Origin: an uncultured Geobacter sp.
GTDB lineage: Bacteria; Desulfobacterota; Desulfuromonadia; Geobacterales; DSM-12255
DNA length: 35,535 nucleotides
Assembly (NCBI GenBank): GCA_937871715.1
Contig: CALMOE010000013.1
Span: 1 to 35,535 of the forward strand
Reading direction: 5' to 3'
The notes below the pieces were generated by a model. The model made no database searches. It had not been told where the DNA came from and saw nothing but the letters and a program-made list of their open reading frames with translations. Shown here one piece after another: positions 31,628 to 35,535 of this stretch. The position numbers were made by a program, and so were the translations under genes. The stretch's first letter is position 1; every line of letters begins with the position of its first letter.

Positions 31628-34600
31628 CTATTTTCCGCAGGTATCCTCGAAGTTGAGGGCAGCCAGCTTCTGGTAGTAGGAGAAATGGGCCTTGACCCAC
31701 TGACCTGCTTTTTTCATCAGCTCATCGGCCGCCTGAGGGTTGGCCTTCTTCAGCATCCGGTAGCGGTTCTCGGCACCGGTATACTCTTCGAAGCTGATGG
31801 TCGGCGCCTTGCTGTCAAGCTGCAGCGGATTCTTGCAATCCCCTGCCAGGGCCGGGTTGTAGCGGTAGAGCGGCCAGTAGCCTGACTGGACGGCACGTTT
31901 CTGGGCATCCACACCGCTGGTCATGTCGATGCCGTGGGCGATGCAGTGGGCATAGGCGATCACCAGGGACGGGCCGTCGAAGGCTTCCGCTTCGAGGAGC
32001 GCCTTGACGCACTGGGCAGGATTGGCCAGGGAGACGGTGGCTACGTAGACGGTGCCGTAGGACATGGCGATCATCCCCAGGTCCTTCTTGGAGACCGGCT
32101 TGCCGCCGGCGGCGAACTGGGCGACTGCACCCAGCGGGGTGGCCTTGGAGGCCTGGCCGCCGGTGTTGGAGTAGACTTCCGTATCCATGACCAGGAGGTT
32201 GATGTTCTTGCCCGAGGCAATGACATGGTCGAGACCGCCGAAGCCGATGTCGTAAGCCCAGCCGTCGCCGCCGATGCACCAGACCGACTTCTTCACCAGG
32301 TAGTCGGCGATGGGTACGAGAAGCTTGGCTGTCTGCTCCTTGCGCCCCTTAAGTGCCTTCTTCAGCTCCTCAACACGGCCGCGCTGGGCTTCAATACCGG
32401 CCTGGCTGCTCTGGTCGGCCCCGAGGATGTCCGCGGCCAGCTTGTCGATCCCCTTCACCGAGGAGAACTCGGTGAGGTACTCCCGGGCCGACTTGCTGAA
32501 CTGGTCCACGGTGAGACGCATGCCGAAGCCGAATTCGGCGTTGTCTTCGAAGAGGGAGTTGGACCAGGCAGGGCCCCTGCCGTCCGCCCTCTGGGCATAG
32601 GGGGTGGTGGGGAGATTGCCGCCGTAGATGGAGGAGCAGCCGGTGGCGTTGGCCACCATCATCCGGTCGCCGAAGAGCTGGGTGAGGAGCTTGAGGTAAG
32701 GGGTCTCGCCGCAGCCGGCACAGGCACCGGAATATTCGAAGAGCGGACGGACCAGCTGGTTGCTCCGCAGGGTTTCCAGCTTGACCTGGGTCGGGTCGAC
32801 ATCGGGGATGGAGAGGAAGAAGTCGTAGTTCACAGCCTCCTGGGCGCGCAGCGGCGGCTGGAAGGCCATATCAAGGGCCTTGTGGCCAGGGTTTGCCTTG
32901 TCCTTGGCCGGGCAGTTGTAGGCGCAGGCGCCGCAGCCGGTGCAGTCTTCCGGGGCGACCTGGACGGTGAGCTTCTTCCCCTTCATCTCCGGGATGGTGC
33001 AGTCGGCAGATTTGAAGGCTTTCGGGGCCCCCTTGAGTTCCTTGGCGTCGAAGGCCTTCATCCTCACCGAGGCATGGGGGCAGACGAAGGAGCAGATGCC
33101 GCACTGGATGCAGATCTTCTCGTCCCAGACCGGGATTTCGGTGGCGATGTTCCGCTTCTCGTACTGGGAGGTGGCGGTGGGGAAGGTGCCGTCGGCGGGC
33201 ATCTTGGAGACCGGCAGGGAATCCCCCAGGCCGGCGACGATCACCCCCGTGACCTCCTTGACGAATTTGGGGGCCTTGCCGCTGATGGCCGCTGCCATCT
33301 TGATCTTGCTGCTGGCCTTGGCCGGGACCTTGACCGCGTAGAAGTTGTTCAGGCCGGCATCGACGGCCTTGTAGTTCATCTCCAGAACCTTCTCCCCGGC
33401 CTTGCCGTAGGATTTCTTGATGGCGTCATTGATGGAGGCAACGGCATCCTTGAGGGGGATGATATTGGAAATCTTGAAGAAGGCGGTCTGCATGATGACG
33501 TTGATGCGGGGTCCGAGGCCGATCTCGTTACCCAGCTTGACGCCGTCGATGACGTACATCTTCATCTTCTTGTCGATGATCTGCTGCTGGACCTCTTTGG
33601 GGATGTTGTCCCAAACCTCTTCGGGGCCGAAGGGGGCGTTGAGGAGGAAGGTGGCGCCGCTCTTGGCCTTGGCGAGCATGTCGTACTTCTCCAGGAAGGA
33701 GAAGTTGTGACAGGCAACGAAGTCGGCCTCCTGCACCAGGTATGGGGCACGGATCTGCTTCTTGCCGAAGCGCAGGTGGGAGGTGGTCATGGAGCCGGCC
33801 TTCTTGGAGTCGTAGACGAAGTAGGCCTGGGCGTTGTTGTTGGTCTCCTCGCCGATGATCTTGATGGAGTTCTTGTTGGCGCCGACGGTGCCGTCGGAAC
33901 CGAGGCCGTAGAACATGGCCTGGTAGACCCCTTCCATGGGGTTCTTGTAGCTGTAGTCCACCTTGAGGCTGCAGCCGGTCACATCCTCTTCGATGCCGAC
34001 GACGAACTTGTTCTTCGGCTTGGCGCTCTTCAGGTTGTCGAGAACAGCCTTGGCCATGGCCGGGGAGAACTCCTTGGAGCCGAGGCCGTAGCGGCCGCCG
34101 ACGATGACCGGGTAGCCATCGGCCTTGAACTTGCCGGAGGCCATGGCCTCGCCGATGGCTGTGCGCACGTCCAGGTAGATCGGCTCGCCAAGGGCGCCGG
34201 GCTCCTTGGTGCGGTCGAGGACGGCGATCTTCTTGACGCTCTTGGGGAGGGCCTTGATGAAGGCATCCAGCGGGAAGGGGCGGTAGAGGCGGATCTTGAC
34301 GACGCCGACCTTCTCGCCCTTCTTCACCAGGTTCTCCACGGTCTCCTGGACGACGTCGGCTCCGGAGCCCATGACTACGACGACACGCTCCGCATCCTTG
34401 GCACCCACATAATCAACCAGCTTGTACTTGCGGCCGGTCAGCTTGCCAAACTTCTCCATCTCCTCCTGGACGATCTTCTCGCAGATGGGGTAGTAGGGGT
34501 TGACGGTCTCGCGCCCCTGGAAGTAGACGTCCGGGTTCTGGGCGGTGCCGCGCATCACAGGCTTGTCGGGGGTGAGGCCCCGCCCCTTGTGGTCGGCGAT

Positions 34601-35197
34601 GAGGTCGTTGTCCAGCATTGCTGCCATCTCTTCCCTGCTGAGCTCAACGACCTTCTGCACTTCGTGGGAGGTGCGGAAGCCGTCGAAATAGTGGAGGAAC
34701 GGCACGCGGCTGCGGAGGGTGGAGGACTGGGAGATGAGGGCGAAGTCCATCACCTCCTGGACGTTGTTGGAGCAGAGGAAAGCCCAGCCGGTGGAGCGGC
34801 AGGACATGACGTCGGAGTGGTCGCCGAAGATGGAGAGTGCCTGGGCGGCGATAGCGCGGGCGGAAACATGGAATACAGTGGAGGTCAGCTCGCCGGCGAT
34901 CTTGAACATGTTGGGGATCATCAGAAGAAGACCCTGGCTGGCGGTAAAGGTGGTGGTGAGGGCTCCTGCCTGCAGGGCGCCATGCACGGCGCCGGCTGCG
35001 CCACCTTCGGACTGCATCTCGACTACGGTGGGGATGTTGCCCCAGATGTTCTTCTCCCCGGCCGCGCTCTTGGCGTCGGAGATCTCACCCATCACCGACG
35101 ACGGGGTGATTGGGTAGATGGCGATTACCTCGTTGGTGGCGTGGGCCACGTGGGCAGCGGCTGTGTTGCCGTCAATGGTGACCATTTTACGACTCAT
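31628..35197 (-). CDS. nifJ: Pyruvate:ferredoxin (flavodoxin) oxidoreductase
   Basis: This 1189-residue single-chain PFOR oxidises pyruvate with CoA to acetyl-CoA and CO2, reducing ferredoxin; it is the central carbon entry in anaerobes and can run in reverse. The N-terminus MVTIDGNTAAAHVAHATNEVIAIYPITPSS opens domain I. Two 4Fe-4S motifs (CIQCGICSFVCPH and CTGCGACAYNCPAK) lie near residues 700-770. CAGCGETPYLK and the TPP motif GDGWAYDIGFGGLDHV, followed by NTGGQ, complete the site. ATG 35197 has GAGGAGGAG upstream. It is preceded on the same strand by recR, 126 bp away. Confidence 0.97.
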   Translation of the reverse strand: MSRKMVTIDGNTAAAHVAHATNEVIAIYPITPSSVMGEISDAKSAAGEKNIWGNIPTVVEMQSEGGAAGAVHGALQAGALTTTFTASQGLLLMIPNMFKIAGELTSTVFHVSARAIAAQALSIFGDHSDVMSCRSTGWAFLCSNNVQEVMDFALISQSSTLRSRVPFLHYFDGFRTSHEVQKVVELSREEMAAMLDNDLIADHKGRGLTPDKPVMRGTAQNPDVYFQGRETVNPYYPICEKIVQEEMEKFGKLTGRKYKLVDYVGAKDAERVVVVMGSGADVVQETVENLVKKGEKVGVVKIRLYRPFPLDAFIKALPKSVKKIAVLDRTKEPGALGEPIYLDVRTAIGEAMASGKFKADGYPVIVGGRYGLGSKEFSPAMAKAVLDNLKSAKPKNKFVVGIEEDVTGCSLKVDYSYKNPMEGVYQAMFYGLGSDGTVGANKNSIKIIGEETNNNAQAYFVYDSKKAGSMTTSHLRFGKKQIRAPYLVQEADFVACHNFSFLEKYDMLAKAKSGATFLLNAPFGPEEVWDNIPKEVQQQIIDKKMKMYVIDGVKLGNEIGLGPRINVIMQTAFFKISNIIPLKDAVASINDAIKKSYGKAGEKVLEMNYKAVDAGLNNFYAVKVPAKASSKIKMAAAISGKAPKFVKEVTGVIVAGLGDSLPVSKMPADGTFPTATSQYEKRNIATEIPVWDEKICIQCGICSFVCPHASVRMKAFDAKELKGAPKAFKSADCTIPEMKGKKLTVQVAPEDCTGCGACAYNCPAKDKANPGHKALDMAFQPPLRAQEAVNYDFFLSIPDVDPTQVKLETLRSNQLVRPLFEYSGACAGCGETPYLKLLTQLFGDRMMVANATGCSSIYGGNLPTTPYAQRADGRGPAWSNSLFEDNAEFGFGMRLTVDQFSKSAREYLTEFSSVKGIDKLAADILGADQSSQAGIEAQRGRVEELKKALKGRKEQTAKLLVPIADYLVKKSVWCIGGDGWAYDIGFGGLDHVIASGKNINLLVMDTEVYSNTGGQASKATPLGAVAQFAAGGKPVSKKDLGMIAMSYGTVYVATVSLANPAQCVKALLEAEAFDGPSLVIAYAHCIAHGIDMTSGVDAQKRAVQSGYWPLYRYNPALAGDCKNPLQLDSKAPTISFEEYTGAENRYRMLKKANPQAADELMKKAGQWVKAHFSYYQKLAALNFEDTCGK

Positions 35198-35323
35198 ACA
35201 ACTCCTCCTCTGTTGTTTATGTTGCCAAGTTATTGCAAACAAGCTTCTACGAAGCTGATGCTCAGCCTACCATGACCCCCCCGGGAGTCAACTACCCTCG
35301 ACCGATGCGGCCTTTCCTGCCAT

Positions 35324-35511
35324 TCACATCTCCGCTCGTCCCTGGAGCGCCCGCTGCATGGTGGCCGCATCGATGTACTCCAGGGCGCTCCCAATGGGGA
35401 TGCCGTGGGCCAGTCTGGTGACCCGTACCCCCCTGCTCCTGATGAGGCCGGTGAGGTAGATGGCTGTCGCCTCCCCCTCCACCGAGAAGTTGGTGGCGAT
35501 GAGCACCTCCC
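35324..35511 (-). CDS. recR: RecR recombination protein, C-terminal part
   Basis: The 3' end of recR reads GEVLIATNFSVEGEATAIYL, then GVRVTRLAHGIPIGSALEYID and LQGRAEM. This is the Toprim end of RecR, which works with RecO/RecF to load RecA at gaps. About 62 residues remain. The 5' part is cut by the adapter at 35512; the frame is intact up to it. Longer frames that continue into 35512-35535 are artefacts. Confidence 0.92.
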
Positions 35512-35535
35512 CTGTCTCTTATACACATCTGACGC
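35512..35535. other. Nextera transposase adapter (assembly artefact)
   Basis: CTGTCTCTTATACACATCT is exactly the Tn5 mosaic end used in Nextera libraries, and the following GACGC is the start of the read-2 adapter. It joins recR in mid-gene, so the true genome sequence ends at about 35511. Confidence 0.98.

Follow-up and report, generated by a model that had tools for sequence, protein, structure and literature searches.

A Nextera adapter remnant follows a truncated recR gene at the end of a Geobacter contig

The window analysed here is a stretch of 35,535 nucleotides from an uncultured Geobacter sp. (contig CALMOE010000013.1 of assembly GCA_937871715.1). It is the complete contig, referred to below as C13, and position 35535 is a true contig end. 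Two protein-coding features on the minus strand lie near this end. The gene for pyruvate:ferredoxin (flavodoxin) oxidoreductase occupies 31628..35194 (TIGR02176, 1795.9 bits with a cut-off of 911.35) and is positioned downstream of recR, of which the 3' part is found at 35324..35511. This fragment corresponds to profile positions 138-195 of 196 in TIGR00615 and is genomic up to 35511. It matched the profile with an E value of 1.6e-19 and 70.1 bits; the cut-off of 162.55 was not reached, which is expected for a partial gene. In Pfam, RecR_C was matched and Toprim_4 scored slightly below its cut-off.

The last bases of the window read ...GAGCACCTCCC, followed by CTGTCTCTTATACACATCT and then by GACGC up to the final base 35535. 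The CTGTCTCTTATACACATCT at 35512..35530 (plus strand) is an exact match, 19 of 19 bases with no mismatch, to the Tn5 mosaic end, which is the transposon end of the Nextera kit and is directed outward from the insert. The five bases behind it (35531..35535, plus strand) match the first bases of the Read-1/i5-side arm. The final 24 bases of the window (35512-35535) are identical at 24/24 positions to the first bases of the reverse-complemented Nextera Read-1 oligo. The 19-mer has no other match in the window, even when up to three mismatches are allowed, and it did not occur in 100 dinucleotide shuffles. The claim of the first-pass annotation that a 19-base Tn5 mosaic end plus GACGC is present at 35512-35535 is therefore confirmed as an exact match to the Read-1-side adapter. 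At the left end of the window, no adapter was seen by sequence inspection or by a 12-mer search. By eye, positions 1-300 appear A+T-richer than the rest of the window, which has 55-70% G+C per kilobase.

The boundary between genome and adapter was compared with the recR genes of related genomes. A recR scoring above the curated cut-off was found in 18 of 19 relatives, the exception being G011, which is 81% complete. Nucleotide comparison with these 18 genes gave a match in 17 (G006 gave none). In 11 of the 17, homology ends at 35509-35511, and in five it ends before 35509. In the remaining one, G002, the alignment extends five bases into the mosaic end. We read this extension as chance and the five earlier stops as fading similarity. 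The recR fragment is 86.7% identical to that of the same-genus relative G001 over 188 bases, and the last matching base is 35511, just before the adapter. The encoded protein is 91.9% identical to the G001 protein over 62 residues, and the recR reading frame is open as far as the last genomic base. In all five relatives fetched across both genes, recR is followed by the pyruvate:ferredoxin oxidoreductase gene on the same strand, so the fragment lies in its usual place.

The other contig ends had been proposed as a check on the adapter reading, and they agree with it: the assembly holds 17 further exact copies of the 19-mer, every one terminal and facing outward. The assembly consists of 304 contigs (3,425,549 bases, 608 contig ends). 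Including the copy in the window, the exact 19-mer is present 18 times (6 forward, 12 reverse), compared with 2.5e-5 occurrences expected under equal base frequencies, and the reversed control pattern was absent from the assembly. In all 18 cases, 2 to 29 bases separate the copy from its contig end. Beyond the mosaic end, ten copies continue into the Read-1 arm and eight into the Read-2 arm, the shortest continuation being two bases. At nine other ends, GACGC extends through the whole i5-side arm into index bases that fit S503. The sequence extends into the index at 16 of the 18 ends, in one case by just one base, and S503 or N703 fits every time. Two copies, one of them that of the window, are too short for this. 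Since the window's own copy has five arm bases and ends before the index, its library membership is taken from the sister contig ends. The index names and letters are those tabulated in PMC7589761; the layout of the oligos (index, then Nextera arm), from which the test oligos were built, was taken from a table in PMC13400746. A 12-mer search of the assembly, in which remnants shorter than 12 bases go uncounted, added two ends: in one the adapter stops at 15 bases, and in the other the mosaic end has one mismatch. All 20 of its matches lie at contig ends, which amounts to 20 of the 608 ends of the assembly. The TruSeq-type 12-mer was not found in the assembly.

Among the 19 relatives searched, the 19-mer occurs in one only, the same-genus G001, which contains 42 copies. 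Thirteen of these 42 ends were read, and all 13 fit S502 or N702. The present assembly (G000; L001-L018) and G001 (L039-L051) thus carry neighbouring Nextera index pairs, as if from one sequencing project. The adjacency of the pairs (S503/N703 and S502/N702) suggests two libraries of a single project.

The indices at the sister sites, the outward location at contig ends and the stop in homology make the identity of the adapter as good as proven. We put at about 99% the probability that bases 35512-35535 are Nextera (Tn5 tagmentation) adapter left untrimmed where an assembled contig ends. This is an ordinary artefact of a kind already known. Tn5 transposase would have cut the sample DNA within recR and joined the Read-1-side adapter there. 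If the resulting fragment was shorter than the read, the read would have passed beyond the insert into adapter sequence. This sequence would then have stayed untrimmed, and the assembler would have retained its first bases as the terminus of C13. The lack of sequence beyond this end would reflect a gap in coverage or a short contig that was dropped.

The mosaic end derives from the ends of IS50, and here it sits within a gene, as would be seen if a real Tn5/IS50-type transposon end had entered recR and truly disrupted it. However, the sister copies run into Illumina indices and are confined to contig ends. The Tn5-type transposase DNA-binding domain PF14706 had no match in the genome at E 0.001 (the E. 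coli control was positive), and the native outer end was absent from the genome at up to two mismatches. The last two results speak against a native Tn5/IS50 end, which the index sequences already contradict, and we give this explanation practically no weight. Of the two flanks at which a 9-bp target duplication would lie, the assembly contains only one. Natural degradation or absence of recR in the lineage is in keeping with the single partial recR in the assembly, but we consider it extremely improbable. In G001, recR is complete (247.7 bits) and the gene order is dnaX-ybaB-recR, and the fragment in the window keeps both an open frame to its last genomic base and its high protein identity to G001. 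A technical rather than biological truncation is therefore supported, in agreement with the first-pass annotation. The annotation had also held that recR is truncated because of the adapter, and this part of its claim was too strong, since about 1.4 kb beyond the contig end was not found and the facing contig end is without adapter.

That facing end belongs to contig C205 (L060, position 1-6), where dnaX was found running off the contig start with its 3' end missing. On the scale of G001, C205 and C13 are 1,442 bases apart, and the missing stretch of about 1.4 kb holds the whole of ybaB, flanked by the end of dnaX and the start of recR. Profile searches of the assembly at E 0.001 detected no ybaB (TIGR00103) and no second recR piece beyond the window's fragment (TIGR00615). 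The gap may come from failed coverage or from a contig of about 1.4 kb that was omitted from the bin. The adapter marks where the last read ended; it is also possible that the adapter itself broke the contig, in which case trimmed reads would carry C13 through recR, ybaB and dnaX into C205. This possibility is compatible with the adapter reading and concerns the cause of the break only. It finds a precedent in PMC11536531, where N50 rose after trimming in 327 of 1110 contaminated assemblies; the authors, who argue that adapters hinder the merging of contigs, take the rise as a sign of this. Against it stand the roughly 1,442 bases between C13 and C205 that searches of the assembly did not find, together with the adapter-free end of C205. 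A short contig omitted from the bin would explain the missing bases under either cause of the break. We regard a break caused by the adapter as a tentative explanation, somewhat less probable than its opposite. With at least 12 adapter bases at only 20 of the 608 ends, the adapter is not the general cause of breaks in this assembly.

The adapter affects the reading frames at the contig end. Translated inward, it encodes ASDVYKRQ, RQMCIRD and VRCV*ET in its three frames. Two false ORFs on the minus strand begin inside it: one of 98 aa at 35230..35526, with a GTG start and the N-terminus MYKRQ, and one of 78 aa at 35292..35528, with an ATG start and the N-terminus MCIRDR. At E 0.001, neither matched a family in NCBIfam or Pfam. 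Frames beginning with these letters had been named in the annotation, and both exist, but both lie outside the frame of recR. The recR frame is the third one, which the adapter closes with a TAA stop; a gene caller would accordingly report either a 60-aa ORF from 35506 or one of the false ORFs. These N-termini had also been described as well known in databases. Among the papers listed in literature searches, no title or abstract dealt with protein ends derived from adapters, and no report of the N-termini under those letters was found, which is no proof that none has been printed; adapter-coded residues in annotated genes were found nonetheless, as described below. Of the strings themselves, a guppy receptor record quoted in PMC4658143 begins with MYKRQN, the texts of PMC12817525 and of PMC7694136, discussed below, also contain MCIRDR or MYKRQ, and the 19-mer is printed once in PMC4777721. 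For the biology of the organism the remnant has no significance. The 24 bases are to be trimmed, recR should be regarded as incomplete through the assembly and not as lost, and the 98-aa and 78-aa adapter-led ORFs should not be treated as genes.

Similar remnants occur in public sequence collections. Of 50,697 phage records, 26 contain the 33-base Read-1 arm; of 72,556 plasmid records, 8 match it along 32 or 33 bases. Three of the 26 phage records, picked for having a CDS at the match, were fetched and the CDS translated from their coordinates. All three annotated CDS contain adapter-coded residues. VUF54226.1 (L302, 414-641) has RQMCIRD near its start, the CDS being incomplete at that end. 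YP_009909638.1 (L303, 462-647) has SYTHLTLPT near its end, and the terminase YP_009877169.1 (L301, 777-2585) has CLLYTSDAAD near its end. A 28-base pattern had at least 127 matches in at least 119 stretches of public genome contigs. Among the matches listed, to which these counts apply and which are not a prevalence estimate, 121 of 127 face outward with a contig end no more than 50 bases away, and the other six lie 74 to 471 bases from one. Among the 80 viral-contig matches listed, one lies in a contig interior (L183, 2159-2186), and two (L246, 4061-4088; L258, 13-40) lie inside the record at the edge of the examined stretch. For data hygiene such remnants carry some weight: adapter-bearing ends put adapter-coded residues into annotated genes, and a screen restricted to the TruSeq-type adapter misses them. 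The retained indices point to the library.

Adapter words may also have entered a published drug-resistance model built on amino-acid 5-mers. Table 2 and Tables A5-A11 of PMC7694136 give 49 distinct selected 5-mers, and the Nextera arms together with up to two insert bases encode 60 5-mers. Three of the 49 are among these 60, namely SEPTR, CIRDR and GSEMC (Tables A6 and A7), and all three were selected for Klebsiella pneumoniae: SEPTR and CIRDR for imipenem and GSEMC for tobramycin. In the adapter translations, SEPTR comes from LSLIHISEPTR and GSEMC from LVGSEMCIRD, while CIRDR arises from MCIRD plus a codon completed by the insert. If all 5-mers were equally likely, the chance of three or more adapter words would be about 1e-10, which is a rough guide only. 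In the same tables the gene product is left blank for 11 of the 49 5-mers, including these three, and three of the four blank K. pneumoniae 5-mers are adapter words; the other eight blank-product 5-mers gave no adapter match. According to PMC7694136, SEPTR, CIRDR and GSEMC occur in 169, 162 and 160 of 1,666 strains, and the strains that carry them have a mean MIC below that of the rest. The three 5-mers are words of the adapter translations, and it is quite probable that adapter remnants entered the model in this way; what it learnt would then be a batch effect of library preparation that follows MIC. As a counterpoint, section 28 of the paper states for all datasets that the 5-mers chosen align with known resistance genes, but the blank rows of its tables do not bear this out. 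Section 21 explains that the product was left out when hits disagreed or were mostly hypothetical proteins. The words adapter and Nextera are absent from the main text. If the adapter origin is true, adapter remnants reach biological conclusions, and this resistance feature would be a batch effect and not a determinant.

The pattern in this assembly resembles that described by Moeller et al. 2024 (PMC11536531), who found adapters concentrated at contig extremities, with one orientation at contig ends and the reverse complement at contig starts. In contrast to our case, the adapter counted there was the 12-base AGATCGGAAGAG, which does not occur in the present assembly, and the screen as described would miss a Nextera remnant of this kind. 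The adapter-bearing ends correspond to the Nextera XT combinations N703/S503 and N702/S502, as they match oligos assembled from the layout in PMC13400746. The arms printed behind the indices in the table of PMC7589761 differ from those found here, and only the names and index letters of that table were used. A further parallel concerns the encoded peptide: PMC11075570 reports that 18 nucleotides from the inverted repeat of Tn5 encode DVYKRQ as an in-frame Tn5 linker peptide. There, the residues come from a deliberate insertion in a cloned gene, whereas at the end of this contig they are an artefact.
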